Under the pieces are notes generated by a model. That model worked only from the letters and a program-made list of their open reading frames with translations. It searched no databases and was not told where the DNA came from. From contig JAFGPN010000001.1 of NCBI GenBank assembly GCA_016936175.1, positions 1-49,990 of the forward strand: a stretch of 49,990 nucleotides of DNA, written 5' to 3'. Shown here one piece after another: positions 17,396-32,503 of this stretch. The DNA comes from Patescibacteria group bacterium. Its GTDB lineage: Bacteria; Patescibacteriota; Kazan-3B-28; UBA10110. A program made the translations under genes and the position numbers. Each line of letters opens with the position of its first letter. Position 1 is the first letter of the stretch.

Positions 17396-17464
17396 TACAA
17401 CCTCATCTTAACAGTTCCAACCACACTTTGCTGTCAAATAAAAAGCAGTCCCACAAAGGAGATT

Positions 17465-17716: not shown

Positions 17717-17748
17717 TGCCCATGCTTCGTTCTGCAAACTACGCAGGG

Positions 17749-17810
17749 CAGTCTTCGCTTTTCATTATATTGGCGAAGCCAGGCGTAGCTACCGCAGGTA
17801 GCGAAGACTG
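17749..17810 (-). repeat. Inverted-repeat module fused to the tRNA-Ala CCA end
   Basis: The 11-bp arms CAGTCTTCGCT (17749-17759) and AGCGAAGACTG (17800-17810) enclose hairpins TGGC-GAA-GCCA (17771-17781) and GCTACC-GCA-GGTAGC (17788-17802). The right arm includes the CA of the encoded tRNA CCA. No T-run follows on the minus strand. Confidence 0.75.
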
Positions 17811-17884
17811 GTGGACCTGAGGGGATTCGAACCCCTGACCTCCTCCATGCCATGGAGGCGCTCTACCAACTGAGCCACAGGCCC
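17809..17884 (-). tRNA. tRNA-Ala (anticodon GGC)
   Basis: A 76-base cloverleaf beginning GGGCCTG, with D arm GCTCAGTTGGTAGAGC, anticodon loop ATGGCAT closed by CCTCC/GGAGG, T arm GGGGTTCGAATCCCC and acceptor CAGGTCC-A-CCA with CCA encoded. The acceptor has the G3-T70 (G3:U70) pair that identifies tRNA-Ala. It starts 5 bp after the stop of the membrane-protein gene at 17890 and is probably co-transcribed with it. Confidence 0.96.
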
Positions 17885-17889
17885 ATAAA

Positions 17890-18276
17890 TTAAAGTTTCA
17901 GATTTTTCGCAAAGAGCCAGATCCCCGGCAGTTGCTTCTCCTGCCCCTTCACTGCAAAATATACTCCCATTACGCTAACCGCTACAAACAATAGCCAGGC
18001 TATCTTACTTAACCATTGGGTAAAAGTGAAGACCCCAAATGAGAAGATAGCGGTTAAAAAATTACCCAGTAGTAACAGAACTACTCCAGCCACCACCTCA
18101 GCCAAAAACAATACGGCACCTTGGCGGACATGAAACATCACAAATTTATCCTCCCGTTTGGCTATCCAGGGCACCACAAACAGAATTGAGAGATAGCTCA
18201 GAGCCGCAAACACTCTGGTGTCCAATTCTAAACCGTTAACTAATTGAGGCCGATTTTGTTCCTCCATGTTTTCCAT
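17890..18276 (-). CDS. Small membrane protein (DUF4870/Tic20-like)
   Basis: A 128-aa protein with three hydrophobic segments (about 24-40, 50-78 and 85-110). The KREDKFVMFHVRQGAVLF stretch resembles the FH.RQ motif of DUF4870/Tic20-like membrane proteins. The start at 18276 overlaps the preceding O-antigen-ligase gene by 41 bp; an ATG at 18267 (MEEQNRPQ) is an equally possible start. Function of the family is unknown. Confidence 0.75.
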   Translation of the reverse strand: MENMEEQNRPQLVNGLELDTRVFAALSYLSILFVVPWIAKREDKFVMFHVRQGAVLFLAEVVAGVVLLLLGNFLTAIFSFGVFTFTQWLSKIAWLLFVAVSVMGVYFAVKGQEKQLPGIWLFAKNLKL

Positions 18277-19633
18277 TATAGCTCGGATTAACCCATAAAA
18301 CAGCTATCAGGCTAAGCACTAACATAAACATTAATCGGCCACCTGGCAAGGTCCACCAGTAATGGTCCGTCAGGCCGATGCCTGCTATTGTAGCTACCCC
18401 CCACAACCCCGCCAACCCCCACACCGAAGCACGCCACCATAACCTGATTGTCAAATAGACTGCCGCCCCAATAATCCAAAGCAGTAAACCCAACCCGATT
18501 GGCCCCAACTCGGCCAAAGCCAACAAATAGACATCATGAACTGGTTGATAATAGTTGAGACTTTTAGCAGAAGAATAACTCCACCCCCCCAAATCCGAGC
18601 GGTACTGCCAATTAGCTGTTGCCTCGGGCTGCCAAACGTTCAAAAAATATTGGCCAACCCCCACGCCGGTTATGGTATGAAGACCGTAGATTTTTTTAAA
18701 CTCCTCCCATTGCACAATTCGTGAGTTAACCGATATCTGTTCAACTAAATCGGGGTCGGAGCTCCAACGCGGTACAATCGCTTGCCACTGGGTCAAAATT
18801 ATAACTATTACCGCTAAAATAACTGGCCAGCCACTCTTTAGTCCGGACCAAAATCTGGCGCAATGTTTCCAGACCAACCAGGCACAAACTGCCACACCCC
18901 CCACAATCAACATCACCCAAGCGCTACGCGAGAGAGACAGGATTAGCCCGATTAGACCAACCCCCGCTATTAGCCACCAAGCCACTTGGCTAATCTTTTT
19001 TCCTGTACCGAATAATAGTGGCCACATTATGGCCAAACTTACAGTCAAATATCCGCCCAAAACATTAGCATGAGGTAACGTCCCATGTGCTCGAAGTTGC
19101 CTCGCCCCATCAATTAACACTACGGGGATACCGGATTTAGCCGGCTCCAACACCGATTCACCCAGCCAAGTAAGTCCTAATGAGTGATTGTTAAAATACT
19201 GCCCCATAGCGAGTAGGCTTTGCCCAATTACCCCAGCCGCTAAGGGATAAACAATGGTAACAATATTCTTAACGCGATTAAGTAAATAAAAATATAATCC
19301 AACATATAACAAAAATCTTAAGGCCGACTGTGCGCCGATTAATAAATTGGGTTGCGCCCAGAGTAACGAGACCCACATCCAGCCCGCCAATAGCAACAAT
19401 GGCAACGTCAACCATTTGGGCCCCCAATTAAATCTACCGATTCGCTTAAAATCGATTAACCAGAGCAGTAGTAAGCCGATAATGAGTAGATCGCTTAAAA
19501 ATAAACTGGTTGAGGCGTAATCAACAAATGCGTTTTGGTAAAAAACCGGAATTAACACCTTCCGGGCAGATAAAGGTATAGCAAAGAGGGTTGCCCACAA
19601 CCACCACTGATTAGCCTTCTGCCAAAATTTCAC
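18236..19633 (-). CDS. O-antigen ligase / Wzy polymerase-like membrane protein
   Basis: A 465-aa polytopic protein with about a dozen hydrophobic segments. The Wzy_C/O-antigen-ligase pattern is visible: a SRSAWVML helix start (about 235), a large extracellular loop with GVGVGQYFLNVW (about 323-334), and PVHDVYLLALAELGPIGLGL (about 370-389), the family's H-N/D-x-x-L...E-x-G signature. Such proteins join or polymerise undecaprenyl-linked glycans on the outside of the membrane. It overlaps the upstream nucleotidyltransferase gene by 23 bp. Whether it is a ligase or a polymerase, or attaches glycan to pilins, cannot be told. Confidence 0.85.
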   Translation of the reverse strand: MKFWQKANQWWLWATLFAIPLSARKVLIPVFYQNAFVDYASTSLFLSDLLIIGLLLLWLIDFKRIGRFNWGPKWLTLPLLLLAGWMWVSLLWAQPNLLIGAQSALRFLLYVGLYFYLLNRVKNIVTIVYPLAAGVIGQSLLAMGQYFNNHSLGLTWLGESVLEPAKSGIPVVLIDGARQLRAHGTLPHANVLGGYLTVSLAIMWPLLFGTGKKISQVAWWLIAGVGLIGLILSLSRSAWVMLIVGGVAVCAWLVWKHCARFWSGLKSGWPVILAVIVIILTQWQAIVPRWSSDPDLVEQISVNSRIVQWEEFKKIYGLHTITGVGVGQYFLNVWQPEATANWQYRSDLGGWSYSSAKSLNYYQPVHDVYLLALAELGPIGLGLLLWIIGAAVYLTIRLWWRASVWGLAGLWGVATIAGIGLTDHYWWTLPGGRLMFMLVLSLIAVLWVNPSYNGKHGGTKSASIS

Positions 19634-20513
19634 TTAGCGCTCCCTCGATCGCATCGCGCACAGCAGACCTGCGATCATTAAAATGTAGCTTAATTACATT
19701 ATCCTCTATCACAACCGACGGATTAACACCAAGGCGAAGTAGATTTTTGTGGATAATTTTCTGCTGAGCCAATTTTAACCTCTGCTCTAATCGATCTCCA
19801 TATCTACCCGACAGCCAACGCTCAATTAACTTACAACCGTAAGATGGTCTAATCGCTGGCCAATCCTTAGCTCGCGGACTGCGCCAAGCGATAGGCAGAT
19901 GTTGTTTAAGCCAGGGATTAGCCTGCCATAGTTTTTTGGGTTCATTACCTGGCCAGATTTGGGTAACATCAGCTAACCAAAACGATAGGTAATAATCATT
20001 ATCTAAGGCTATCGACCTAAGATCTAACGTACTATCCCCCAACCACAACTCGGGCGAAAACTTGCCATGTTTATCAACTCCTCGAACTCTCAGCCTTAAC
20101 AAATTTAAACTCAATAACAAAATCGCCCGGCAGGTCCATAACCTGCCAGATTTACCTATAATCAGCAGATCAATATCACTGCCCTGTTTTACGTTATCGT
20201 AAGCCAAGGTGTTGGTTACAAATACCTCGCGCAAAAATGGCACATTTGCAAACAGCCATCGGTAGCGCCTGGTTTTCTGCCAAAAACTATTAGCCAGCTC
20301 AGCTTTACTTAAGCGCTCATCCGCTATCTCTCCATACCAAATTAGATCTTGCTCATAGTTTATTCCTGGCAGAAGCCGAATAACTTTTTTTAGTTCTTCT
20401 TCCGAAAGTTCGTTCTGCCACAGATATCTGCGTAGCTCCTTTAACTTCAGGGGAAATCTAAACCAGCTAAAGAAAATTATTGGCACCAGAACTGATTTTT
20501 TGAGCTCATCCAT
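19611..20513 (-). CDS. Nucleotidyltransferase-fold protein
   Basis: A 300-aa protein. Residues 96-120 show the minimal nucleotidyltransferase core: FVTNTLAYDNVKQGSDIDLL, with G111-S112-D113-x-D115, followed by hydrophobic and basic segments. A third Asp could lie in LDLRSIALDND (about 172-182). Residues 20-60 look like a winged-helix or helical domain (LKELRRYLWQNELSEEELKKVI). The C-terminal 70 residues are basic and helical. It is the first gene of the three-gene set with the O-antigen-ligase-like protein. The substrate is unknown. Confidence 0.65.
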   Translation of the reverse strand: MDELKKSVLVPIIFFSWFRFPLKLKELRRYLWQNELSEEELKKVIRLLPGINYEQDLIWYGEIADERLSKAELANSFWQKTRRYRWLFANVPFLREVFVTNTLAYDNVKQGSDIDLLIIGKSGRLWTCRAILLLSLNLLRLRVRGVDKHGKFSPELWLGDSTLDLRSIALDNDYYLSFWLADVTQIWPGNEPKKLWQANPWLKQHLPIAWRSPRAKDWPAIRPSYGCKLIERWLSGRYGDRLEQRLKLAQQKIIHKNLLRLGVNPSVVIEDNVIKLHFNDRRSAVRDAIEGALSEILAEG

Positions 20514-20539
20514 CCGTCTTATTTACAGCTACATTATAG

Positions 20540-20676
20540 TATACCCCGTTAAAAGTCCGCCGAACTTACGGTTTGATGCGTCATCCTGGCTTGTCTAGGA
20601 TCGTATAATACGATTCTGGATGCGTCCTGCTGGACTTACCAGAATGACGAGATGGTAAAACTTCCAATGGGGTATA
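20540..20676. mobile_element. MITE-like element A (CCCC...GGGG ends, TATA direct repeats)
   Basis: The 11-base end TATACCCCGTT (20540-20550) faces AATGGGGTATA (20666-20676), pairing with one G:T. Removing the flanking 4-base TATA direct repeats leaves a 129-bp core CCCCGTTAAAAGTC...ACTTCCAATGGGG. Its ends resemble element B at 36304-36417. Inside lie a second long palindrome, GCGTCATCCTGG (20578-20589) against CCAGAATGACG (20639-20649), and ATCGTAT/ATACGAT. There is no reading frame. It fills the gap between divergent genes. Confidence 0.55.
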
Positions 20677-20719
20677 GCGGCCTTATCTAAACTGATAAAC
20701 TATGATAGTTTTAGCTTAT

Positions 20720-21916
20720 ATGGGCAAGACCGTACTATCTGGTATCAAACCATCCGGCATTCCCCAGTTAGGCAACTACGTGGGGGCAATTAGCTATTGG
20801 GCAGAACTACAAAATAAATACGATCACGCCATCTTTCCGGTGGTAGACCTACATGCTATTACCGTGCCACAAGATCCAAAAGTGCTATCCCATCAGACAT
20901 ATCTAACCACCGCGATTATCCTGGCCTCCGGCATCAATCCAAAAAAATCGATTGTGTTTGTCCAATCGGACGTACCCGCCCACAGCGAATTAATGTGGCT
21001 ACTAACCACCGTGGCGACGATGGGCGAACTCGGCCGGATGACTCAATACAAAGATAAATCCGGTACGGCTCAATTAGATAGCGTAGAGAAGGCGTTGTCT
21101 GAAGAGCTCCGGGAGGCCTACAAAATTGCTCACGCCCAGATCGACACAAACACGTCCAATGTGGATGATATGGCGGCTGCACTGGTCAAAATTCAGGCAC
21201 AATTAAAGGCAAAATCTGACCTTCCAAAACTCCAAAGGTATATGCTCTTATTAAAACTGTTAGAGGAGCGGCGCCGAGATAGAATGGGTGCTGGCTTATT
21301 TACTTATCCCGTACTTATGGCGGCGGATATTTTGCTATACCAAGCTAACGTGGTGCCAGTTGGCGAAGACCAAAAACAACACGTCGAACTGGCTCGTGAC
21401 TTAGCTGAGAGATTTAATAAACGCTTTGGCGAAACCTTTGTCGTACCCGAACCCTTGCTACGCAAAGAAGGGGCCAGGATCATGGATCTATTGGACCCGG
21501 CTAAAAAAATGAGCAAGAGCGATAACGACAACGGTTGCATCCTGCTAACCGATTCGCCAGAAATTATTCGCAAAAAGATTATGCGAGCAGAAACTGATTC
21601 TGGCCATGATATTAAATTCAATCCGGTAATCGATCGGGAGGGTGTACACAACCTGCTAACCATCTATAAAGTGCTATCCGGCAAGACCGAAGCGCAGATT
21701 GAAAAACATTTTGCAAAAAGTGGTTACGGCGATTTAAAACGGGAACTATCAGAATTAGTTATAGCTAAACTCTCCCCCATCCAAAAACAGATAGATAAAT
21801 ATATGAAAAATAAAAAACTGCTCGAACGCATCCTCAATGATGGCGCCCAAAGAGCTGACAAGATCGCCCAAAAAACTCTGGCTGAAGCTAAGAAAAAAAT
21901 TGGTCTGATCACCTAA
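20720..21916 (+). CDS. trpS: Tryptophanyl-tRNA synthetase
   Basis: A 398-aa class Ic synthetase. The start at 20720 (MGKTVLSGIKPSG) matches the family N-terminus; an in-frame ATG at 20702 would add six residues. The HIGH-type motif is PQLGNYVGAI (15-24) and the KMSKS motif is KKMSKSDND near 266. Family blocks MTQYKDKS and GLFTYPVLMAADILLY are present, but about 65 residues, charged and helical, are inserted between them, where typical enzymes (330-340 aa) join directly. TATGAT at 20701-20706 could be a -10 box just before the start. Confidence 0.95.
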   Translation: MGKTVLSGIKPSGIPQLGNYVGAISYWAELQNKYDHAIFPVVDLHAITVPQDPKVLSHQTYLTTAIILASGINPKKSIVFVQSDVPAHSELMWLLTTVATMGELGRMTQYKDKSGTAQLDSVEKALSEELREAYKIAHAQIDTNTSNVDDMAAALVKIQAQLKAKSDLPKLQRYMLLLKLLEERRRDRMGAGLFTYPVLMAADILLYQANVVPVGEDQKQHVELARDLAERFNKRFGETFVVPEPLLRKEGARIMDLLDPAKKMSKSDNDNGCILLTDSPEIIRKKIMRAETDSGHDIKFNPVIDREGVHNLLTIYKVLSGKTEAQIEKHFAKSGYGDLKRELSELVIAKLSPIQKQIDKYMKNKKLLERILNDGAQRADKIAQKTLAEAKKKIGLIT

Positions 21917-21918
21917 AT

Positions 21919-21956
21919 AAAAAATGAGCCCCGCATCCGGTTAAGGACTTGGGGCT
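21919..21956 (-). terminator. Intrinsic terminator downstream of prs
   Basis: AGCCCC (21927-21932) pairs with GGGGCT (21951-21956), extended by an internal GTCC/GGAT pairing, and on the minus strand is followed by CATTTTTTATTT. It lies between the convergent trpS and prs stops and ends the prs transcript. Confidence 0.78.
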
Positions 21957-21974
21957 AGTTGGCGTACTTAATCA

Positions 21975-22976
21975 TCAGGCGAAAAGTTCGTGAAGGCTTC
22001 CCCCGTTATAGTTACACCTGATGGCCTCGGCCAGGATTTTGGCGATGCTCGCCACTCGGATCAAACCCGGTCGCTGATAACGCTTGGAGACTCGCTTCAC
22101 ACTAGCGGGTAGCTGGATGGTGTCAGTAGTATACACCTGGTCGATCTCCTGACAGGTGAACAGACGTTCAATCGCTGGGCCGCTAAAGATCGGATGGGTA
22201 GCCGCCACACAAACCTGAGTGGCCCCCCTTTGCTTTAATAGCCCTGCGGCCGCCACGATACTACCACAGGTATCGAACATGTCGTCAAACACCACCGTTC
22301 GCTTGCCATGGACACGTCCGATTAAACGAACAGCTTCAGCCTTACCCGGTTCTGAGCGATGTTTCTCAATGATCGCCACCGCCCTTTTGACCCCCAGTCG
22401 CACCCGAGAACGATCAGCTCGGCCCACCCCGCCAAAGTCAGTGCTGGCAACTACCACATCGTCACCCGACCAGCCATCGATCACCAACTGGTTGCACAGC
22501 GCGATGTCGCCAGTGAGATTGTCGACTGGGATCTTAAAGAATCCCTGGATGGAGGGGTTGTGGAAATCAAACGCCATCAGACGCTGTATCCCCGTCTCCT
22601 CCATTAGCCGCGCCACCAGGCTAGCCGTAATCGGCTCCCTGGGTTTGGTTTTTTTGTCCTGGCGCGCATAGCCATAGTGCGGGGTAACCGCCACTATCCG
22701 ATAGGCCCCTGCCCTAACCAAGGCATCGGTCAGGACCAACAGCTCCATTAGATTATCGTTAACGCTCGTCGGCTTACCCCGAAACTGGCTAGCACTAATG
22801 GACTGGACGATGAAACAATGAGCATCCCGCACGCTCTCCTGAACCTGGACCTGAATCTCCCCATTATTAAACCGGGAGATTAAGGCCGGGGTTAGTTTAA
22901 CGCCGAGATGTTGGCTGACATTTTGACCCAGCGGAACATTGGAATTGCCTGCCAACAACTTAAGTTCGTGATCCAT
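21975..22976 (-). CDS. prs: Ribose-phosphate pyrophosphokinase (PRPP synthetase)
   Basis: A 333-aa enzyme making PRPP from ribose-5-phosphate and ATP for nucleotide synthesis. Recognisable blocks are RFNNGEIQVQVQESVRD (about 34-50), HYGYARQDKKTKPREPITA, the catalytic-His region AFDFHNPSIQGFF, VVASTDFGGVGRA, and the PRPP-binding VVFDDMFDTCGS. Several positions are less usual (DFHN for DLHA, the EKHR loop for DKRR), but the key His and the DD...T pattern are kept. It has its own leader and promoter upstream and a terminator downstream. Confidence 0.93.
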   Translation of the reverse strand: MDHELKLLAGNSNVPLGQNVSQHLGVKLTPALISRFNNGEIQVQVQESVRDAHCFIVQSISASQFRGKPTSVNDNLMELLVLTDALVRAGAYRIVAVTPHYGYARQDKKTKPREPITASLVARLMEETGIQRLMAFDFHNPSIQGFFKIPVDNLTGDIALCNQLVIDGWSGDDVVVASTDFGGVGRADRSRVRLGVKRAVAIIEKHRSEPGKAEAVRLIGRVHGKRTVVFDDMFDTCGSIVAAAGLLKQRGATQVCVAATHPIFSGPAIERLFTCQEIDQVYTTDTIQLPASVKRVSKRYQRPGLIRVASIAKILAEAIRCNYNGGSLHELFA

Positions 22977-23014
22977 CTCTGCCCTCGCTTGAATGTATTC
23001 ATGATTTCAAGGCA

Positions 23015-23077
23015 CGTTTCGGCTAAAGCCGCAAACGTTCGACCCTAAAACATACCACCCGTGGTAGTTAAGGTCAA
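23015..23077 (-). promoter_or_regulatory. prs promoter and structured leader
   Basis: Minus-strand TTGACC (23077-23072) and TATGTT (23054-23049) are 17 bp apart. Transcripts then run into a stable hairpin CGTTT-CGGCT/AGCCG-AAACG (23015-23037). The promoter itself contains the palindrome TACCAC-CC-GTGGTA (23053-23066). Closer to the start a CTTGAA/TTCAAG pairing is possible. No known riboswitch is recognised. Confidence 0.45.
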
Positions 23078-23098
23078 AATCGGATTGGGCAACAATAT

Positions 23099-24463
23099 TT
23101 AGGCCGACTTTCTAATCGAGGCCGACAGTTCGGCGCTTTTGCTTTCCAAAAGCCCTGGCGATACCGCTTCTACATTTAGTCGCAACAATGGCTCGTTAGA
23201 ACTCGGCCGCACATTAAACCACCAATCGGGATAGGTTACGGTTAGCCCATCAAGCCAATCTACCTGGCCATCTGCGTACTGCCCCGACAATTTTCTCATT
23301 ACCACATTGGGATCATTAACTCGCGAATTGGTTTCGGGAATCTGGTAATATCGCCGATGCGGCTTTAGTATCTCGCTAAGCGGCTGACCCTTCTGGGAGA
23401 TAAGCGCCAACACCAATACCGCGGCGATTAACCCAGAATCACCATTGTAGTTACGCTGGAAATAGTAATGACCAGAGTGCTCGCCCGCAAAGTATACCCC
23501 CCGAGCCTTCATGTCTTTTTTAATGTAACCAGTCCCCACCTTAGTTCGATAGGCAGTGGCTTGATGCTTGCTAATCACGTCTCGGATATTCCAGCCAGCG
23601 ATAGCGCCATATAACATAATACGGCTAGGGTCCTCGTCTAGTAGCTGATCCATCACCATAGCGGTCGTCTCATTGCCTGTCACAATCTTACCCTGCTCGT
23701 CGATCAAGAACATCCGGTCAGCATCGCCATCAAACGCCATCCCCAAATCTGCTTTTTCGGCTACTACTCTCTGTCGCAGATCGGCCACATTCTTAGGTTC
23801 GATTGGGCTGGGCAAGTGGTGCGGAAAATTACCATCGGGTTCGAAATACATCTCCACCATCTCCACTGGTAGATGTCGAAACAGTTCCCGGACTATCGGA
23901 CCAGCTACTCCATTGCCTGCATCAACTACTATCTTGAGTGGTTTAATCTGAGCTGGATCGATAAACGACAACACATGCCTAATCCAATCCGGCAAAAGAT
24001 CAACCCGAGTGGTCACCACCTCCGCCGGCACATACTCACCGGCAACCGCCGTCGTTAGCTCACCGATGGCCATTACTTCTCCATCTCCACCGATCTGATT
24101 GCCCCCTCGGCTGTAGATCTTCATCCCAATCCATTCTTTGGGATTATGTGAAGCTGTAACACTAATCGTAACGTCAAAATCTTTGGCCCCGGCCGCCCAA
24201 CTCATCATATCCGTTCCGGCCATCCCACAATCAAATACCTCACATCCCACATCGCTAAATCCATGACAGATCGCTTGATGGATGGCAGGAGCCGACAACC
24301 GAGCATCACGACCGATTGCCACTTTTTTGCAACCCGTGTAACGCTGAATGGCCTTGGCCACTACGTACGCTCCCGCCTCGTTTAGTTCGGCTGGATAAAT
24401 TCCTCGAATGTCGTAAGCCCGAAAAATCGATGAGTCTAAGCCCGGGCGACTACTAATCCCCAT
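23099..24463 (-). CDS. Phosphomannomutase/phosphoglucomutase
   Basis: A 454-aa alpha-D-phosphohexomutase. The active-site phosphoserine loop is TASHNP (103-108, Ser105), the metal-binding loop is DGDADR (245-250), the sugar-binding loop is GEHSGH (327-332), and the C-terminal phosphate loop is RPSSNEPLLR (near 417). This is the AlgC/ManB type that interconverts hexose-1- and -6-phosphates for sugar-nucleotide synthesis, and it would feed GalU encoded nearby. The start at 24463 overlaps comF by 28 bp. Confidence 0.94.
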   Translation of the reverse strand: MGISSRPGLDSSIFRAYDIRGIYPAELNEAGAYVVAKAIQRYTGCKKVAIGRDARLSAPAIHQAICHGFSDVGCEVFDCGMAGTDMMSWAAGAKDFDVTISVTASHNPKEWIGMKIYSRGGNQIGGDGEVMAIGELTTAVAGEYVPAEVVTTRVDLLPDWIRHVLSFIDPAQIKPLKIVVDAGNGVAGPIVRELFRHLPVEMVEMYFEPDGNFPHHLPSPIEPKNVADLRQRVVAEKADLGMAFDGDADRMFLIDEQGKIVTGNETTAMVMDQLLDEDPSRIMLYGAIAGWNIRDVISKHQATAYRTKVGTGYIKKDMKARGVYFAGEHSGHYYFQRNYNGDSGLIAAVLVLALISQKGQPLSEILKPHRRYYQIPETNSRVNDPNVVMRKLSGQYADGQVDWLDGLTVTYPDWWFNVRPSSNEPLLRLNVEAVSPGLLESKSAELSASIRKSA

Positions 24464-25125: not shown

Positions 25126-27487
25126 TTATGCCCGAATAGAAATATTTAAGAATCTGCTCGGCAGTCTGACCAGCGGCCGCCATATTGTAAGAGCTCCACT
25201 GAGATAATCCTATTCCGTGGCCATTACCCTTACCGCTTAAAACAAAGTCCGGTCCATTGTCTGGTCCAGTCGTAATAATAGTAAGGTTCATGCTCTTAAT
25301 GTAGTTGCTGTCGGTTAAGTAGTCGAAGGTATTCAAATCCATCGTGGCCCGCTTGCCCGTGCTGGTAGTTAAGGTAACGCTTTTTAGTCGACCCGAGGGA
25401 TATCTATCATCGACCATCATCCCCACCACCGTCTCGCCGGCGCCCGCCCCAACTTTTGCCAATTGATCACTAAACCGATTTTGGACATAGCCCTGAGATA
25501 AGGTCGCCTCCCACGTTACCGGCTTAGCGTACGAATCCGCTACGCCCTTTAAATACGGAATGGCTTTGGCAGGGTTGCCACTACTCCAAACATTCTCCAC
25601 GTTTTCCGTTGCTCCGCCACTGTCAGAATGATAGTAGGTCAAGGCTGGCTGACCGTTGTACAGCACTAACAAGCCAAGGGTTGCATCAACTGCCTGAGAG
25701 ATGCCCGGTCGATTAGTTTCATAATTAAAGCCATAGTAAACCTGGTCTCTAGTATCATCATAGATATCAAAGATATCTGCTTTGGGGTCGTTAATCCGGC
25801 GAACTGCAAATGTGCGCGCCGCAATTACCTGCGCCTTGCGTGCCTCCATGGGCCAACTATCCGGCACCTCTGCCAATCCCCTTAGATAGTCCTCTAACTC
25901 CAACTCGTTAACTAACCAAACGTTGCCGCTATAGCTCGAACGGCGGATAGCGATAATCCCCCTAAAACGATTATAGCTGCTGCTTACCCCATCATTACTT
26001 ACTGTAATTACAGAATTTTTCAGTGGAATAAATCTTAAATAATCATCAATCGAGCGGGCCGATCCACCGATATTAATCGAATAACCGCCACTAATTGCAG
26101 TAACCACCACCAGCTGACTATTAGTAATTCTTTCGACCAAACCGCGACCATCTCCCCGCCTAATTACCATCCCATTGCTACTGCTAATGGTCATGCTGTT
26201 GGTAGTAGAATTTAGCCCTACCCGAATTGGTCGTAACAACTTAAGTTCTTCGTTAACCGTAATCTCCCAATAGATACCCATGTCTTCCATCCAAGCAACA
26301 TTCTCTATCACCGGCCTAAAGTACTCCTTGTAGGTGCCAATCTGCTCCGGCGCCCGAACTGTAAAACTAAACCGGCCAGTCTCGCCCGGAGCAACATCTT
26401 TATCTACTGTGGCTACTCGATTATTGCTCAGCCAACTGGAATCATAAAATAAGCTCTCGCGATCTAGCGCTCGGGCTGTACCCAATTTGGTAGCATTATC
26501 TCCGGTGGCCTTCCAAATCGTATTGCCCTTATTAATCAGCTCCACCCAAAGAGTGGCCGTTGTTCCGGGGGTAAGTGATACCGGTTCAGACTGGCGTGCA
26601 AAGCTAGCTGAATAGATTGCTGGCTGAACAGTTACCTCAATCCCAAAGTCAGATTGGGGTAACCAGGCTAGCCCTTCTGCCACCACCGCAAAATTTTCTA
26701 CATATTTACCCGGTTTACTAGGGGCGCTGATTGTAAAATTAAACTCCGCTATACCTCCCGGAGCCGTTGCCATGCTGGCCATCGCCGCTCGATTATCACT
26801 CAGCCAACTACTCGATCTAAACAAACTTCTTCTGTCCAGTGGCTTGGCCGTGCCTATCTTAATCGCGTTGGGGCCACCATTAGCCCAGGTAATGTCACCA
26901 GTATTTTTAAGGTTGAGATTAACTACTTGGGTTTCTCCGGTTTTTAGGATGATTGGAGGTGGTGTAGATACTAATTCACCGGTAATAACAGCGGGCTTGG
27001 CATCAACGTCGATATAAAATTCAAACCCCTCAAACCAAGTTACTCCCTCCGCTACTAAACCAAAATATTCACGATAGTTGCCTTGGGCCAACGTTCCTGA
27101 TGTAATATCAAACACAAACTTACCCACTTCACCAGGAGCAATTTCAGTTTCGGCTGTACTAGCCAGCCTGTTGTCACTTAGCCAATTGGTGGCGCGCAAA
27201 TTGCTATTTCTGTCTCTTTTTCGAACAGTGCCGATCTTAACCGCATTATCGCCAGAGTTTTTCCAGGTGCTTAAACCAGTGTTTTTAAGCTCTATCCAAA
27301 CCTGCTTGGTCTCCCCAGTCTTCAGGCTAACCTTTTCTGCTTGAGCCACCCATTGGGCGGCATACTCGGAGGTAGCCAAAACCGACCGGGTAGCTCCTCC
27401 CCCAACCACTAAGGCCACTAAAAATATCCCCAAAAGTTGCGCGTATCTCATCATTGATGATCTAATTTTTCCTCTGTAATCCATCAT
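25109..27487 (-). CDS. Surface protein: three NBR1-like Ig repeats plus SpoIID/LytB domain
   Basis: A 792-aa exported protein. A signal anchor lies at about 16-38. Three repeats of about 110-115 residues follow (roughly 40-160, 170-290 and 295-410). Each has the pattern SL..G.T...WVEL.N.G...W...GDNA.K.GT....R.S.....WLS.NR.A, typical of Ig-like domains from the NBR1 family. A SpoIID/LytB-type domain (about 420-790) contains ELELEDYLRGLAEVPDSWP, EARKAQVIAARTFA and GHGIGLSQWSS. SpoIID proteins are peptidoglycan lytic enzymes or amidase partners, so a wall-remodelling role with glycan- or protein-binding repeats is likely. An ATG at about 27454 (MMRYAQLL) is an alternative start. Confidence 0.88.
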   Translation of the reverse strand: MMDYRGKIRSSMMRYAQLLGIFLVALVVGGGATRSVLATSEYAAQWVAQAEKVSLKTGETKQVWIELKNTGLSTWKNSGDNAVKIGTVRKRDRNSNLRATNWLSDNRLASTAETEIAPGEVGKFVFDITSGTLAQGNYREYFGLVAEGVTWFEGFEFYIDVDAKPAVITGELVSTPPPIILKTGETQVVNLNLKNTGDITWANGGPNAIKIGTAKPLDRRSLFRSSSWLSDNRAAMASMATAPGGIAEFNFTISAPSKPGKYVENFAVVAEGLAWLPQSDFGIEVTVQPAIYSASFARQSEPVSLTPGTTATLWVELINKGNTIWKATGDNATKLGTARALDRESLFYDSSWLSNNRVATVDKDVAPGETGRFSFTVRAPEQIGTYKEYFRPVIENVAWMEDMGIYWEITVNEELKLLRPIRVGLNSTTNSMTISSSNGMVIRRGDGRGLVERITNSQLVVVTAISGGYSINIGGSARSIDDYLRFIPLKNSVITVSNDGVSSSYNRFRGIIAIRRSSYSGNVWLVNELELEDYLRGLAEVPDSWPMEARKAQVIAARTFAVRRINDPKADIFDIYDDTRDQVYYGFNYETNRPGISQAVDATLGLLVLYNGQPALTYYHSDSGGATENVENVWSSGNPAKAIPYLKGVADSYAKPVTWEATLSQGYVQNRFSDQLAKVGAGAGETVVGMMVDDRYPSGRLKSVTLTTSTGKRATMDLNTFDYLTDSNYIKSMNLTIITTGPDNGPDFVLSGKGNGHGIGLSQWSSYNMAAAGQTAEQILKYFYSGISVGVA

Positions 27488-27504
27488 AGATTAATCCGCT
27501 CAAA

Positions 27505-27533
27505 TTACCAAAATATTACCCCTTATATATAAT
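27505..27533 (+). promoter_or_regulatory. hsp20-galU promoter
   Basis: TTACCA (27505-27510) and TATAAT (27528-27533) are 17 bp apart. Transcription should start near 27540, leaving almost no leader before the hsp20 ATG. Confidence 0.55.
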
Positions 27534-27543
27534 GGTAATGCAG

Positions 27544-27969
27544 ATGAAGATCGGCAATTCCATACAAGTCTTTACCCGCTCAACCAAGCGTCGACTACCG
27601 ACTAGCTTAGACGAACAGAACATCGAACAATCAGAAATAGAAGAAGACCTCGAACTGCCTATCGACCTAGCCCGCCGCGGGCAAAACCTAATTATTGCGA
27701 CACCCATCGTGGGGGCATCTACCGAAGACATCAGTATCACCGTGAATCAGGATATTCTGTTTATTCACAAAAGCGCCACCCCGATCTCCGGTCGAATGGA
27801 CACTCACTATATTAAAGAGTGCCACTGGGGACCGATTGCAAGAGAGGTTCACCTGCCCCTACCAGTCGATGCCGACAACATTCAGGCCACCCTCAAAGAT
27901 GGGATACTAACCATAACTTTGCCTATAATTAAATCAACTAGTCGAACTAAAGTAATCAAGATACGATGA
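27544..27969 (+). CDS. Hsp20/alpha-crystallin family small heat shock protein
   Basis: A 141-aa small chaperone. The alpha-crystallin domain runs from about 46 to 135, with strand patterns LIIATPIVGASTEDISITV and the GP...EVHLPLPVDADNIQATLKDGILTITLP block near its end. The last residues KVIKIR replace the usual C-terminal I-x-I motif. ATGs at 27532 and 27538 are in frame, but the first overlaps the -10 box; 27544 is the first ATG clearly inside the predicted transcript, and 27538 is also possible. Its stop overlaps the galU start (ATGA), so the two are coupled. Confidence 0.85.
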   Translation: MKIGNSIQVFTRSTKRRLPTSLDEQNIEQSEIEEDLELPIDLARRGQNLIIATPIVGASTEDISITVNQDILFIHKSATPISGRMDTHYIKECHWGPIAREVHLPLPVDADNIQATLKDGILTITLPIIKSTSRTKVIKIR

Positions 27970-28829
27970 AAAAAATTACCAAGGGGATTATCGCTATTGC
28001 TGGATTTGGAACCCGATTTTTGCCGGCCACTAAAACTATCCCCAAGGAGATGTTGCCGATTATCAACAAGCCGGTCATTCAGTACATTGTTGAGGAAATG
28101 GTAGAGGCCGGAATCACAGATATTATCTTGGTCACCAGCTGGCAGAAACGAGCAGTAGAAGATTACTTTGATCGAGTCTACGCAATCGAAGAGCACCTGG
28201 AGGATAACGGCAAAACCGATTTACTTACCGAACTTCGCCGGATTGATACACTGGCTAACTTTATCTATGTTCGTCAAAAAGGTGGACACGGCAATGGGGC
28301 GGCCATTCTCTCTGCCCAAAGCGCAGTTGGCAATGAGCCCTTTTTAGTTGCCTTCGGAGACGACTTGGTTAAAATCGAGCCCGGCTACCCCTCATTCAGC
28401 AAACAACTGGTCGAGGACTACTACCAGCACGGCACATCTGTTTTAGGAGCCCAGTCCGTTACCCCCGATCAGGCACATAAGTACGGAATTATCGAAACCG
28501 ATTCTAGCGGTGATTTGGTTGCCAGGTTGATCGAAAAACCCACCCCTCAGCAGACCAAATCAACCCTGGCCAGTTTTGGTCGTTATTTATTTACTCCAGA
28601 GATTTTCGATTATCTTAAAAAAACCGTCGCCGGGAAAAATGGAGAAATCTGGTTAGTAGATGGTATCGCAGCCATGTTAAAGAAATATCCAGTGCGAGCA
28701 CGCCAGATCGAAGGTGGTCAATGGTATACTACAGGTGATCCGGTTAATTACTTCCGTGCCCTGCTCACCTACAGTATTGATCAACCAGATCTAAAACGGG
28801 TGTTAAAAGAGTTCACAAAAAAACTATGA
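27966..28829 (+). CDS. galU: UTP-glucose-1-phosphate uridylyltransferase
   Basis: A 287-aa nucleotidyltransferase making UDP-glucose. The nucleotide-binding loop is GFGTRFLPATKTIPKEML (about 13-30), with RQKGGHGNGAAIL, LVAFGDDLV and LIEKPTP as further family blocks. The N-terminus MKKITKGIIAIAG fits the family start. It overlaps hsp20 upstream and the solute-binding protein downstream by ATGA, so three unrelated-looking proteins are translationally coupled. Confidence 0.95.
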   Translation: MKKITKGIIAIAGFGTRFLPATKTIPKEMLPIINKPVIQYIVEEMVEAGITDIILVTSWQKRAVEDYFDRVYAIEEHLEDNGKTDLLTELRRIDTLANFIYVRQKGGHGNGAAILSAQSAVGNEPFLVAFGDDLVKIEPGYPSFSKQLVEDYYQHGTSVLGAQSVTPDQAHKYGIIETDSSGDLVARLIEKPTPQQTKSTLASFGRYLFTPEIFDYLKKTVAGKNGEIWLVDGIAAMLKKYPVRARQIEGGQWYTTGDPVNYFRALLTYSIDQPDLKRVLKEFTKKL

Positions 28830-30163
28830 AAAAGCTGGTTTCGTATCTGTCGCTCTCATTAATTACTGTTTTAATCCTGTCTGCCGCTGGTTGTGGGACC
28901 TCCCCTGGAGGCGGCCGGGTCGATATCGATACTACCACCCCAATCGTATTGCAATATGATCGGCTATTTGATGAGAGTACGGTTTTGGATGAGACCATCA
29001 AGCGATATCAAGAGGATCATCCAAATATTACTATCGTGGTAAGAAAGGTTAATCTTAAACCGGGTGAAACCATCTACGACTATCAAAAGGATTTGATCAA
29101 ACAGATTGCCGACGGCAACGGGCCAGATATGTTTATGATTCACAACGACTGGCTTCCCTATACCAAAAATCTTATCAGCCCAATGGATCCCAGAACAATG
29201 AGTGCTCAGACCTATTCTGAGACTTTTTACCCAGTGGTAACGGGAGATTTTATCGACGCTAACCAAATCTACGCTGTTCCCTACTACATCGATAACCTGA
29301 TGTTGTTTTATAACACCAACATATTAGAAGAGGTCGGCATCAGACGCCCACCCCAAACTTGGAAGGAGCTGGTAGATATGGTGCCAAAATTAACCCAATA
29401 CGGACCGGGCGATACAATTAAGAAATCTGCCATCCCCTTGGGTGTGGCCGAGAGCATCCCCCGCTTTGCCGAGATTCTGGCGGCCCTGATTCTGCAGTAC
29501 GGCGGAGAGATGACCACGACCGACCACACTAAGGCTACCTTCGACCTGCCAGCCCCCAATTCCGAACCCCCGTACTTTTCTGGTCGAGAAGCACTGAAGT
29601 TCTATACCGATTTCGCCAACCCGGCATCGGCGGTGTACACCTATACAGATGCTAAAAATAGCGATGGGTCGTTTAAATTTCCTATCGATGTTCAAGCCTT
29701 TATGGAAGAAAAAGCCGCTATGATGATCGGCTATGCTTATCAGGTAGCTAACATCAAAAAGTTTGCCCCTAACCTAACCTTTGAGACCGCCCCCTTGCCA
29801 CAGCTTCGCCCCGGAGAGCCCTTAACAATAGCCAATTACTGGGGCGAGACCGTCTCCAAAAATTCTGAGCACCCCAATGAGGCTTGGGACTTTATTAACT
29901 TCGTGGCCAAAAATCAGTACAACTACGCTTGGGCCAGTCAGCGTATCCCAGCTACCAAAGACAGCCGCGAATCATACGTCGACCGACAATACTACGGCCC
30001 AGTAGCCGAGCAGGCCAACAGTAGCAAATCTTGGTATCGCCACAACTCCCCAGCCGTGGAAGATATCTTTGCCCGGATGGTCAACAGTGTGTTACATAGC
30101 GGCGTAGCTATCTCCACCGCAATCGATACAGCCGCCCGAGATATTAACCAACTGTCTCCGTAA
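28826..30163 (+). CDS. Extracellular solute-binding lipoprotein (sugar ABC type)
   Basis: A 445-aa lipoprotein with signal peptide and lipobox SAAGC (Cys23), then a family-1 solute-binding protein fold: the PDMFMIHNDWLP segment, YAVPYYIDNLMLFYN and NEAWDFINFVA are typical of maltose/sugar-type binding proteins. No ABC permease or ATPase gene is in the window, so it is an orphan here. The next gene, a VirB2-like pilin, starts two bases after its stop. Confidence 0.9.
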   Translation: MKKLVSYLSLSLITVLILSAAGCGTSPGGGRVDIDTTTPIVLQYDRLFDESTVLDETIKRYQEDHPNITIVVRKVNLKPGETIYDYQKDLIKQIADGNGPDMFMIHNDWLPYTKNLISPMDPRTMSAQTYSETFYPVVTGDFIDANQIYAVPYYIDNLMLFYNTNILEEVGIRRPPQTWKELVDMVPKLTQYGPGDTIKKSAIPLGVAESIPRFAEILAALILQYGGEMTTTDHTKATFDLPAPNSEPPYFSGREALKFYTDFANPASAVYTYTDAKNSDGSFKFPIDVQAFMEEKAAMMIGYAYQVANIKKFAPNLTFETAPLPQLRPGEPLTIANYWGETVSKNSEHPNEAWDFINFVAKNQYNYAWASQRIPATKDSRESYVDRQYYGPVAEQANSSKSWYRHNSPAVEDIFARMVNSVLHSGVAISTAIDTAARDINQLSP

Positions 30164-30164
30164 A

Positions 30165-30422
30165 ATGTCAGTCGTACTAGGATTGGTTAACAGACTTACA
30201 GATACCGCAATCAAAATCGGCAATACTATTTTGTTGCCTGTCGGTGGAGCCATCGTGGTGTTAGCCTTACTCTGGGGAGGTGTTCAATATGCCCAGGGCA
30301 ATGCGGAAGCCGGCAAAAAAACTATCACCGCAGCCATTATCGGTCTGGTAATAATAGCAGTGGCCTCGCTGTTAGTAAGTCTAGCCAATCAAGCCGTATT
30401 ACAACAGCTACCAACCGGTTAG
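30165..30422 (+). CDS. TrbC/VirB2-like small pilin protein (short form)
   Basis: An 85-aa protein with two hydrophobic helices (about 20-40 and 55-77) separated by a short polar loop NAEAGKKT. This GNTILLPVGGAIVVLALLWGGVQYAQG pattern followed by a second helix is the TrbC/VirB2 pilin fold, without an obvious signal peptide. It starts one base after the solute-binding protein stop. It resembles the next gene (30506-30847) in layout, and both may contribute to a type IV secretion pilus. Confidence 0.75.
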   Translation: MSVVLGLVNRLTDTAIKIGNTILLPVGGAIVVLALLWGGVQYAQGNAEAGKKTITAAIIGLVIIAVASLLVSLANQAVLQQLPTG

Positions 30423-30436
30423 AACCACCGCGAGAG

Positions 30437-30465
30437 TTTATACTGTCCGTTCTTTTTGCTATAAT
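30437..30465 (+). promoter_or_regulatory. Promoter for the second pilin gene
   Basis: TTTATA (30437-30442) and TATAAT (30460-30465) are 17 bp apart, with a TGC extended -10. The leader holds AAAGGGG 9 bases before the ATG at 30506, one of the clearer ribosome sites in the window. Confidence 0.65.
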
Positions 30466-30505
30466 GGCTTTGACTTAATTTAACTTATTAAGAAAGGGGT
30501 ACAAT

Positions 30506-30847
30506 ATGAGAATGTTTCAGCAAGTCAGTAGCGTAGTAATCGCTAGTGTGGCCACCGTCGCTCAAGCCGGTTTAGCTCTAGCTCAGATAACTGCGCCCAG
30601 CGTTGGACAAGTTCCAGCCGGCACCAACATTAAAGACATTTTGATAAAGGTTGGTAACTGGCTCTTAACTATCGCTGGCGCTCTGGCGGTTGTTTACCTC
30701 ATCTACGGTGGCATTATGTACATCGTCGGCGGAGAAAAAGGCGCCGAAAAGGCCAAGACGATGATTATCAACGCCATCACCGGTTTGGTAATTATTGCTC
30801 TCGCCTCGTTAATTGCCCGCCTGGTTGTTAAGACCCTGGGCGCTTAA
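30506..30847 (+). CDS. TrbC/VirB2-like pilin with signal peptide
   Basis: A 113-aa protein with an N-terminal signal peptide (about 1-26, ending near ALAQ) and a mature part with two hydrophobic helices (about 50-72 and 86-108) joined by a polar turn GGEKGAEKAKT. That is the TrbC/VirB2 major-pilin plan; the YGGIMYIVGG glycine pattern is typical of CPR homologues. It has its own extended -10 promoter, AAAGGGG ribosome site and a strong terminator, as expected for a highly expressed structural protein. Confidence 0.85.
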   Translation: MRMFQQVSSVVIASVATVAQAGLALAQITAPSVGQVPAGTNIKDILIKVGNWLLTIAGALAVVYLIYGGIMYIVGGEKGAEKAKTMIINAITGLVIIALASLIARLVVKTLGA

Positions 30848-30872
30848 CAGCATCCGATCTCAGTTACAACCT

Positions 30873-30904
30873 AAAAATCCCGTTCTGAGCAGAACGGGAT
30901 TTTT
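30873..30904 (+). terminator. Bidirectional intrinsic terminator
   Basis: A perfect 15-bp stem AAAAATCCCGTTCTG/CAGAACGGGATTTTT (30873-30887 with 30890-30904) has flanking A and T runs, so it can act on both strands. It lies 26 bp after the pilin stop. Confidence 0.92.
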
Positions 30905-30921
30905 AGTTTCTTCCATCAGAC

Positions 30922-30992
30922 AAGGGGGCTCCCGACACCTTGCGGTTTCGATTCTTCCACTGCGGGGAAACTCCCGTTTCCCCGACCCCCTT
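30922..30992. repeat. Stem-loop module between two terminators
   Basis: The outer stem AAGGGGG (30922-30928) / CCCCCTT (30986-30992) encloses the hairpin GGGGAAAC-TCCC-GTTTCCCC (30964-30983). No gene is visible. It lies 28 bp beyond the tRNA-Arg terminator and resembles the other tRNA-side modules in having an outer stem with a hairpin inside. Confidence 0.5.
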
Positions 30993-31019
30993 CACACGGT
31001 TCGAATCCATCAGCCAACT

Positions 31020-31057
31020 AAAAACCACCACCCATTACGTAATGGGTGTTAGTTTTT
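31020..31057 (-). terminator. tRNA-Arg terminator (palindrome starting at the CCA end)
   Basis: The palindrome ACCCATTACGTAATGGGT (31030-31047) is flanked by AAAAAC/GTTTTT arms (31020-31025 and 31052-31057). On the minus strand it follows tRNA-Arg directly, sharing the A of the encoded CCA, and ends in GTTTTTAG. It works as an intrinsic terminator in sequence terms. Confidence 0.75.
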
Positions 31058-31133
31058 GGCGCGCCCGGAGGGATTCGAACCCCCGACCTGTCGGTCCGTA
31101 GCCGACCGCTCTGATCCCCTGAGCTACGGGCGC
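31057..31133 (-). tRNA. tRNA-Arg (anticodon ACG)
   Basis: A 77-base cloverleaf beginning GCGCCCG, with D arm GCTCAGGGGATCAGAGC, anticodon loop CTACGGA closed by GTCGG/CCGAC, T arm GGGGGTTCGAATCCCTC and acceptor CGGGCGC-G-CCA with CCA encoded. Its first 13 bases and flank are partly duplicated 149 bp upstream. Confidence 0.95.
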
Positions 31134-31288
31134 ATATAAAAGTATCCAATATCTATCTGATTCTCTGGCGTAAGGACTGCCGTTAAGTTTACCTCGTCTC
31201 GTCCCTCGTAGTCCAATCTATATTGGAAGAGGATAATTTCCTACTTCCAATGAGACTGGACGAAGTGGGAAGCTACGGGCGCACATAA
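31122..31288 (-). repeat. Direct repeat of the tRNA-Arg 5' end around a 149-bp insert
   Basis: AGCTACGGGCGCA plus a similar ATAA flank occurs at 31122-31139 (tRNA start and flank) and again at 31271-31288. The copies are 149 bp apart. A TATAAT (31296-31291, minus) sits 8 bp before the outer, truncated tRNA start, where a tRNA promoter is expected. The insert holds the inverted repeat ATTGGAAG/CTTCCAAT (31222-31229 with 31244-31251) and outer arms TCGTCC/GGACGA (31198-31203 with 31258-31263), but no reading frame. Confidence 0.65.
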
Positions 31289-31291
31289 GTA

Positions 31292-31783
31292 TTATATTTT
31301 CAGGAATCGATTAATCCTGTCAATCAAATCTTCTTGCTGATTTTTAGATTCAGGCAACCGATTACCCAACGCCCCCCTTATCCTCTCCCCTAATTCATCG
31401 GTAATCCCCAAAGATATCACCGGCATAAATCTTTGAATGGATATTATATTCAATTTAGTCGCTTCCTTGGACTTAGATATCCAAAATGTTTTTAACTGAT
31501 CATAAACGAATGTCCGATTACCGATAGTCATTCCATCATTGTCTATGCGACAACTGACCTTTTCGGGCGACATCCTGCCAGATAGATACAACGCCACCCC
31601 AACCATCACTACCACCCCAACCAATAACCAACGTCCGATATATATGGTATAAATCAATACCAACAGCAGTACTATTGCTACAATTAAATACCAACTCCAA
31701 CCTCGCCGATGAGTTTCAAAATTGGCAGACTCCCATTCAATCGGCTCTATCTGAACTGGCTTCTTAACTTCTTGCTCTTCCAT
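31292..31783 (-). CDS. Membrane protein with PH-like C-terminal domain
   Basis: A 163-aa protein. A soluble N-terminus (1-28) precedes two hydrophobic segments (about 30-48 and 52-68). The C-terminal 90 residues have the strand pattern of small bacterial PH-like domains (DUF5673-type): SCRIDNDGMTIGNRTFVYDQLKTFWI, then an amphipathic helix at the end (EDLIDRINRFLKI). Similar proteins are common in CPR genomes; function is unknown. Confidence 0.75.
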   Translation of the reverse strand: MEEQEVKKPVQIEPIEWESANFETHRRGWSWYLIVAIVLLLVLIYTIYIGRWLLVGVVVMVGVALYLSGRMSPEKVSCRIDNDGMTIGNRTFVYDQLKTFWISKSKEATKLNIISIQRFMPVISLGITDELGERIRGALGNRLPESKNQQEDLIDRINRFLKI

Positions 31784-31841
31784 GGCTATAAATATTTAAT
31801 GATTTAACATTTGCCTCTCGATTCGCTCCGCTCACTCGAGA

Positions 31842-31933
31842 CATTCGACTTCTTCATTGTGGTCGGAGCTTTGCCTCACAGGGCAAAGCGCAGATCATGA
31901 GCGGAGGTCGCCCGAAGCGACCGGAGTCGAATG
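31842..31933 (-). repeat. Inverted-repeat module fused to the tRNA-Ser(TGA) CCA end
   Basis: The arms CATTCGACT (31842-31850) and AGTCGAATG (31925-31933) enclose hairpins GCTTTGCC/GGCAAAGC (31868-31875 with 31882-31889) and GGTCGC-CCGAA-GCGACC (31906-31922). The right arm includes the CA of the tRNA CCA. A further pair CTCCGCTCA (31826-31834) / TGAGCGGAG (31899-31907) crosses the left arm. No T-run follows. The rest of 31784-31931 has no gene. Confidence 0.75.
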
Positions 31934-32023
31934 GCGGTGAGGGTGGGATTCGAACCCACGATACCCCGCAAAGGGTATAACGGTTTTCAAGACCGTCGCC
32001 TTCAGCCGCTCGGCCACCTCACC
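31932..32023 (-). tRNA. tRNA-Ser (anticodon TGA)
   Basis: A 92-base class II tRNA with acceptor GGTGAGG/CCTCACC-G-CCA, anticodon loop CTTGAAA closed by ACGGT/ACCGT, a long variable arm (ATACCC...GGGTAT) and T arm GTGGGTTCGAATCCCAC. CCA is encoded. It begins 10 bp after the stop of the GIY-YIG gene at 32034 and is probably on the same transcript. Confidence 0.95.
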
Positions 32024-32033
32024 CCTATACATA

Positions 32034-32288
32034 TTAAGGTTTCATGCCAATCACTAGACTTTCTTTTTTGGCTCGAGACCACCGCTTAACTTGCGCTTCA
32101 CGTCTCCGAGCCAAAAGATAATCATTGTATGCCTCAGAGTAAACTACCTGGGCTGCCCCATGTTGCTTAACCCAGGCTGCGCCCTGGCCCTTATTATGTC
32201 GGCCTAGTCTCTGACTTAAGTTTTGGGTCACCCCAACATACAGGCTCCCATCGGCACAGCGGAGAATGTAAAAATACCAATTGTTCAT
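32034..32288 (-). CDS. Standalone GIY-YIG nuclease-domain protein (copy 2, between two tRNA-Ser genes)
   Basis: An 84-aa single GIY-YIG domain of the UPF0213 type: core strands WYFYILRC (4-11) and SLYVGVT (15-21), Arg27 in LSQRLGRH and Glu64 in RRREAQVK as catalytic candidates. The start at 32288 (MNNWYFYIL) matches the family; the longer frame to 32327 runs back into an inverted repeat. It lies between tRNA-Ser(GCT) and tRNA-Ser(TGA), 28 bp from the module attached to the former. It is clearly diverged from copy 1, so this is not a recent tandem duplicate. Confidence 0.88.
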   Translation of the reverse strand: MNNWYFYILRCADGSLYVGVTQNLSQRLGRHNKGQGAAWVKQHGAAQVVYSEAYNDYLLARRREAQVKRWSRAKKESLVIGMKP

Positions 32289-32315
32289 TATGTGGCCTCT
32301 CGACCTTGCTCGAGG

Positions 32316-32412
32316 CACTCGACTCATTCAGCTACTCGGTCGGAATTGCAAACCTGGTTTGCAATGGAGACCACGAGCGAATTTCGAACTTTTGTTCGAA
32401 ATGAGTCGAGTG
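32316..32412 (-). repeat. Inverted-repeat module fused to the tRNA-Ser(GCT) CCA end
   Basis: The 13-bp perfect arms CACTCGACTCATT (32316-32328) and AATGAGTCGAGTG (32400-32412) enclose hairpins ATTGCAAACC/GGTTTGCAAT (32345-32365) and ATTTCGAAC-TTTT-GTTCGAAAT (32381-32402). The right arm includes the CA of the encoded CCA. Next to it lies a CTCGA...TCGAG pairing just before the GIY-YIG gene. There is no T-run. Confidence 0.8.
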
Positions 32413-32503
32413 GCGGTGAGGGAGGGATTCGAACCCTCGCAGGGGATTACTCCCCTCTACCGGTTTAGCAAACCAGCCCCTTCAGCCACTTGGGTACCTC
32501 ACC
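32411..32503 (-). tRNA. tRNA-Ser (anticodon GCT)
   Basis: A 93-base class II tRNA with acceptor GGTGAGG/CCTCACC-G-CCA, anticodon loop TTGCTAA closed by CTGGT/ACCGG, a long variable arm (GAGGGGAG...CTCCCC type pairing) and T arm GAGGGTTCGAATCCCTC. CCA is encoded. It shares its acceptor stem sequence with the neighbouring tRNA-Ser(TGA). Confidence 0.95.

Follow-up and report, generated by a model that had tools for sequence, protein, structure and literature searches.

What are the structured sequences that follow several tRNA genes of a small Patescibacteria genome, and what links them to the small GIY-YIG nuclease genes that stand directly behind some of them? The question is raised by the window analysed here, a stretch of 49,990 nucleotides (contig JAFGPN010000001.1 of assembly GCA_016936175.1, our contig C4) from a 670-kb genome of the Kazan lineage, called G000 below. 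Three of its four tRNA genes continue, from the encoded CCA onwards, into a structured module, and the sequence comparisons make it likely that such modules belong to very small site-specific mobile elements, which would depend on a small cognate nuclease of the GIY-YIG type to recognise the module and spread it. The sequences reveal precise and oriented anchoring at the CCA, a covarying structure, gain and loss at orthologous tRNAs, nuclease clades that match the module families, and derivatives that lack the gene.

Modules and nuclease genes in the window

All four tRNA genes of the window lie on the minus strand (ARAGORN), as do all features described in this section; tRNAs were called with ARAGORN and Rfam, GIY-YIG genes with PF01541. 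Behind tRNA-Ala(GGC) (17809..17884), the encoded CCA (17809-17811) forms the left end of module A, which covers 17718..17811 including the CCA and consists of outer arms CAGTCTTCGCT / AGCGAAGACTG with inner hairpins within them, followed by a second stem CCCTGCGTAG..GAAGCATGGGC. R1, a covariance model built on module A, matches it with 102.8 bits. Next comes a GIY-YIG nuclease gene of 79 amino acids (17465..17704; PF01541 E=1.6e-18), placed by tree and motif in a group with an SGxAF signature, its C-terminus being SHSGKAFANKHLF, and then the right end AAATCTCCTTTGTGGGACTGCTTTTTATTTGACA (17432..17465), which sequence comparison also found at non-orthologous copies. Module B behind tRNA-Ser(GCT) (32411..32503) spans 32295..32413 including the CCA and has outer arms CACTCGACTCAT / ATGAGTCGAGTG, two inner hairpins and then the stem CCTCGAG..TCGAGAGG; its nuclease of 84 amino acids (32034..32288; PF01541 E=2.8e-17) is UPF0213-like and grouped with other module-B nucleases. 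A gene-less module B (31813..31934 including the CCA) follows tRNA-Ser(TGA) (31932..32023), a site which in relatives is empty or occupied by module A.

Both nuclease genes are standalone open reading frames (ORFs), and with PF01541 scores above the cut-off they belong to the GIY-YIG superfamily. Y5, Y16, G18, R26 and E62 were invariant in 13 GIY-YIG sequences, and the two window nucleases keep the Tyr, Gly, Arg and Glu positions. The solved structures closest to them are the UPF0213 proteins 1zg2 and 1ywl.

The original prediction, made from the window alone, had placed an inverted repeat lacking a T run and starting inside the CCA behind all four tRNAs. This holds for tRNA-Ala, tRNA-Ser(TGA) and tRNA-Ser(GCT), where the arms start at the CA, enclose hairpins and measure 11, 10 (one mismatch allowed) and 13 bp, close to the 11, 9 and 13 bp first given. 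It does not hold for tRNA-Arg(ACG), whose CCA-anchored arms reach only 7 bp and whose 3' hairpin (31029..31048) carries a T run and is an ordinary intrinsic terminator outside the element. The GIY-YIG genes predicted after the modules of tRNA-Ala and tRNA-Ser(GCT) were confirmed, starting at 17704 and 32288 and thereby 45 and 28 bp past the outer arms, the distances predicted; the extent given for the modules was too short, the second stem lying beyond the outer arm in each. Intrinsic termination was rejected as a description of the three modules on the ground of the missing T run, which is present at tRNA-Arg.

Copies and structure of the modules

The comparison set comprised nine Kazan genomes, G000 to G008, of which G001 belongs to the same genus as G000. 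With a threshold of at least 9 bp and dinucleotide shuffles as the chance level, CCA-anchored arms were found at 10 of 40 tRNAs in G000 (0.32 in shuffles) and at 10 of 44 in G001 (0.49), part of these, for example at Ala-CGC, being ordinary terminators. Reading the 3' flanks of the 40 tRNAs revealed eight copies of module A in G000 (the CCA, then GTCTTCGCT...AGCGAAGACTG and the second stem). Each stands at a different RNA 3' end, in one case a degenerate remnant (...ACACCA), and begins at the first base past the CCA; the Lys-TTT copy is truncated, and a single copy carries a GIY-YIG gene. Module B occurs four times in G000: two copies follow Ser tRNAs, one a Met tRNA and one a duplicated tRNA-Ser(CGA) 3' end. 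Yet another module, type E (CCATGAAG...CTTCATGG), was found in G001 behind tRNA-Phe and tRNA-Pro, with a GIY-YIG gene after both.

R1 finds module A in six of the nine Kazan genomes and in 18 of 287 Patescibacteria genomes. In most of the 42 loci read, the start coincides exactly with the CCA of a tRNA or transfer-messenger RNA (tmRNA) gene; most others begin at a CCA-like remnant, and a few weak matches lie elsewhere. Thirty copies have an arm that can be read, and in 25 of these the dinucleotide past the CCA is matched by its complement in the distal arm, against a mean of 5.6 and a maximum of 13 in 10,000 shuffles, and nine distinct pairs besides GT/AC contribute to this covariation. The complement in the proximal arm matches in 14 of 36 copies, and covariation is therefore claimed for the distal arm only. 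Among the Kazan copies, both-sided changes affect 5 of 28 consensus pairs.

Because the hairpin sequences of module B differ among copies, this family was compared by hand and by pattern (TCGACT, hairpin, CGCTCRTGG). The core pattern is present in 46 of 380 Patescibacteria genomes, and the reversed pattern is rare. Of the 30 loci read, 15 are structured copies one base past a tRNA or tmRNA CCA, about four others stand at CCA-like remnants, and the rest are mostly chance-like matches; the inner hairpin varies in sequence in most copies while its pairing is kept. No Rfam family matched the modules, a weak sX4 match being below threshold and overlapping the tRNA.

Gain, loss and element ends

Presence and absence were judged by synteny across the nine genomes, the comparison of G000 with G001 alone being obscured by other insertions. 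At the tRNA-Ala(GGC) locus, recognised by the same upstream gene, G000 has module A with its GIY-YIG gene, G006 a fragment of module A, G007 a different module, named G, and G008 a terminator, while G001, G002, G003 and G005 display nothing similar; in G004, a terminator precedes another RNA 3' end, which carries module G and a GIY-YIG gene. At tRNA-Ser(TGA), G000 has module B and G007 module A, and neither is found in G002, G003, G005, G006 and G008. The right end, about 34 bp long, recurs past the GIY-YIG gene at three non-orthologous loci and stands directly past module A in one gene-less copy.

Module families and nuclease clades

The genes behind module A fall in one group, most members of which share the C-terminal SGxAF signature; those behind module B are UPF0213-like, and those of modules G and E each form a group of their own. 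On a quick tree of 173 sequences with branch supports of 80-99, including 35 module-bearing genes, the module family changes three times, the minimum for four states, compared with a mean of 17.2 and a lowest value of 11 in shuffles; since certain rows share a genome or stem from related ones, the events are fewer than the rows. A single covariance model for all families was tried and given up: R1 matches adjoin genes of the SGxAF group, at about ten loci from the search with the window protein, and none of 80 loci of another GIY-YIG lineage, and the module families are therefore separate. On the tree, each family corresponds closely to its own GIY-YIG clade.

GIY-YIG genes beside RNA genes

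Small standalone GIY-YIG genes are frequent in many Patescibacteria, the highest number being 17 matches, in a genome of about 0.8 Mb. When G000 and G001 are combined, a same-strand tRNA ends at most 200 bp upstream of 5 of 25 GIY-YIG genes and of 17 of 630 size-matched genes of 60-180 amino acids (odds ratio 9, p=9e-4; the control is rough, resting on greedy ORF calls); opposite-strand tRNA neighbours were seen for none of the 25. A protein-only profile search yielded 80 loci from Patescibacteria, Omnitrophota, Verrucomicrobiota, Bacteroidota, Cloacimonadota, 'Deltaproteobacteria' and others, 45 of them lying at most about 350 bp from a tRNA or tmRNA on their own strand (one also has opposite-strand tRNAs); as the five query sequences were chosen among RNA-adjacent members, this fraction holds for that lineage and not for GIY-YIG genes generally. 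When the sets are pooled, arms of 9 bp or more anchored in the CCA are present at 27 of the 44 RNA genes that a GIY-YIG gene follows, with 0.47 expected, about seven of these 44 rows repeating a locus and a few being terminators.

Enrichment behind tRNAs, covariation of the arms and relatives with and without the module had been named as checks when only the window was known, and the outcome of all three favours the idea. The suggestion that a mobile unit targets tRNA 3' ends is likewise supported, its range having been drawn too narrowly: tmRNA 3' ends are used too.

Among individual GIY-YIG loci from the protein searches (L-numbers), Rfam places L209 behind a tmRNA, L196 as an ORF overlapping a tRNA, L188 (3001-3237) within a 23S rRNA gene and L221 (3001-3309) directly 5' of RNase P RNA, the last two on the sense strand. 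A second set of GIY-YIG genes lies 5' of or within tRNA genes (L156, L157, L163, L175, L183, L215, L218), some having part of the tRNA repeated beyond the gene with one intact tRNA retained. Such copies are compatible with a cut-and-repair event that would duplicate part of the target, as reported for phage SegB (PMC13096335). We also observed partial tRNAs whose D-arm or anticodon loop is split by a palindrome and which precede an intact tRNA with a GIY-YIG gene in between (G000 C10:6375 and C13:13651; G004:331227; L058, L066, L071); at several of these loci the GIY-YIG stop codon falls inside the tRNA 5' end.

Further repeats

A third group of GIY-YIG genes, 'EHK', has one of ten members near RNA genes in the larger set. 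Genes of this type, with an HK..GF motif, are flanked by inverted GTCAT-type palindromes such as GTCATTCCCGCGCAGGCGGGAATCCAG. Tags of this type stand on both sides of eight of ten strict EHK members, and the five other tagged genes among 51 are close variants; tagged sites include G000 C1:21440, C7:2676, C13:18711, C2:10207 and C2:13900, G001 C1:84715 and C1:80833, G004:204310, L068, L073 and L077. A dispersed miniature inverted-repeat transposable element (MITE), about 68-125 bp long and bounded by TCTAACGGG in inverted orientation, is present in dozens of copies, with 14 outward pairs in G000 and 35 in G001, and a GIY-YIG gene lies within each of the three long ones, of 267-274 bp (MITE sites: G000 C1:14017-14284 and C12:34341; G001 C4:32289-32563 and C10:48122-48390).

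Other repeats adjoin tRNAs. One CCA-adjacent family (CGTCAGAA or TGTCGTAG ... CCTTTCCAAAT plus a hairpin) has no GIY-YIG gene directly behind it in the copies seen, at Pro-AGG (C10:6252) and Glu-TTC (C5:36913) of G000, Gly-GCC (C1:40089) and Met (C4:125232) of G001, Ser-GCT of G003 and Arg-ACG of G005. At Ser-CGA (C10:9825), Ser-GGA (C16:4511) and Gln-CTG (C14:92203) of G000, the family C element, TTTATACCCGACTTATA...GGGTAAAT, separates the tRNA from a duplicated tRNA 3' end; as module B stands past the duplicated Ser-CGA 3' end, insertions there are layered. Finally, 3' of the tRNA-Arg terminator in the window (30930-31020), an inverted copy of the tRNA T-arm region is followed by a conserved GGGGTCGGGGAAACGGGAGTTTCCCCGCAGTGGA block, an arrangement shared with Asp-GTC, Ala-CGC and Arg-TCT and found several times in G001.

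Discussion

We propose an element whose left end would be the structured module that starts where a tRNA or tmRNA gene encodes its CCA. Autonomous copies would carry their cognate endonuclease of about 80-90 amino acids directly behind the module and, in some cases, a conserved right end, and gene-less copies would act like MITEs. The nuclease may recognise the fold of its own module and the CCA end and cut the RNA gene there, and the break or nick could then be repaired, or a strand transferred, with the element as donor. The arms include sequence complementary to the target CCA, which would open almost any tRNA or tmRNA tail to one and the same element, and an insertion behind the CCA would leave the RNA intact and therefore be nearly neutral. 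Several points weigh against this proposal. Cleavage, excision or transposition was not seen in the sequence data, and recognition of the folded arms by the nuclease is something we infer from sequence. No target-site duplication delimits most copies at CCA ends, a clear right end is confined to part of the Kazan copies, and the nuclease link of modules B, G and E draws on fewer copies, several of them from related genomes.

A bolder version is possible, to which we give somewhat less than even weight: a class of mobile elements with a single GIY-YIG domain of 80-90 amino acids as the sole mobility enzyme, which would find the CCA by arm pairing and mobilise gene-less modules in trans, related clades doing likewise for the GTCAT-type palindromes and the TCTAACGGG MITEs. 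If the nuclease were proven to be the sole mobility enzyme, the class would be new; otherwise the elements would fit the kind 'hairpin element plus cognate nuclease'.

Could these genes simply be free-standing homing endonuclease genes of the SegB type at tRNA and tmRNA loci, spread by double-strand break repair and co-conversion, with the hairpins as passengers or as protection of the occupied site? The GIY-YIG fold and the RNA-gene targets agree with SegB (PMC13096335), and so do the partial tRNA copies across the GIY-YIG gene at some loci. Like homing genes, these endonuclease genes lie outside introns and inteins, being standalone ORFs; group I and II introns were dropped from consideration for want of any Rfam intron match at the loci. 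A homing gene, however, is tied to one allelic site and comes without structured ends or gene-less copies, whereas module families occupy many non-allelic RNA genes per genome, mostly without a gene, as the eight module A copies and one gene of G000 illustrate. These many gene-less copies and the covariation of their structures are not predicted by plain allelic homing, and we regard this explanation as unlikely.

The modules might instead be host structures of the tRNA 3' trailer, processing signals or terminators, behind which GIY-YIG genes follow by chance. They do stand right behind the mature RNA and on the sense strand only, and many neighbouring tRNAs have true terminators near the CCA; against this, the three window modules lack a T run, orthologous tRNAs of sister genomes have no module or one of a different family, and module family follows GIY-YIG clade, all of which renders a host trailer very improbable. 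Least probable of all is an origin as remnants of integrase-driven elements with the GIY-YIG gene as cargo. The 3' ends of tRNA genes are classic targets of tyrosine recombinases and integrases, and duplicated tRNA 3' ends surround the family C element at some tRNAs. However, the modules read had no integrase gene that was noticed beside them, though no systematic search was made, the repeated unit is module, GIY-YIG gene and right end, and most CCA modules come without a duplicated tRNA 3' end. A mobile element spread by its own nuclease remains our preferred explanation.

The nearest known kinds are the repetitive extragenic palindromic (REP) sequences and REPINs with their REP-associated tyrosine transposases (RAYT, TnpA-REP), and the SegB-type homing endonucleases of phages; the tRNA-tail elements belong to neither. 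With REP/RAYT systems they share short imperfect palindromes, non-autonomous copies and an enzyme lineage evolving with its palindrome family, but the RAYT enzyme is an HUH Y1 transposase, whereas the genes here encode GIY-YIG proteins and the modules are fixed at tRNA and tmRNA CCA ends in few copies. SegB cuts inside tRNA genes and is often found near tRNAs in phages (PMC13096335). T-even phage SegB is likewise a small GIY-YIG enzyme with RNA-gene targets whose gene adjoins tRNAs; the present elements differ in being chromosomal, in the size of about 80-90 amino acids, in the many non-allelic RNA genes used, and in having a structured left end and gene-less derivatives. In rRNA genes of the Candidate Phyla Radiation (CPR), GIY-YIG insertions without intron features have been reported (PMC11270868). 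These too reside in structural RNA genes of Patescibacteria, but inside the rRNA genes, and not at tRNA or tmRNA CCA ends with anchored modules; with the GIY-YIG gene of L188 sitting in a 23S gene, they may be relatives of the tRNA-tail elements. The small GIY-YIG proteins of UPF0213/COG2827 (1zg2, 1ywl) resemble the window nucleases in size and domain, but in the papers found they are not tied to mobile palindromes or RNA-gene tails. A survey of 2006 had already asked whether further members of the GIY-YIG superfamily are molecular parasites (PMC1564403). An earlier description of tRNA-tail elements was not found in the literature searched on GIY-YIG together with tRNA, tmRNA, REP and Patescibacteria, which left out preprints and most subscription papers. 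The placement at the CCA, the matching nuclease that copies often carry and the gain and loss between species point to an undescribed kind of mobile element.

If the proposal is true, it would explain what many small GIY-YIG genes do, namely move palindromic elements, and would account for some of the unusual sequence that follows tRNA and tmRNA genes in minimal genomes. Another nuclease fold would join the few enzymes known to spread hairpin elements, and what moves REP-like palindromes without a known RAYT would become directly testable. The elements would also provide an example of exploiting a sequence common to nearly all tRNAs.

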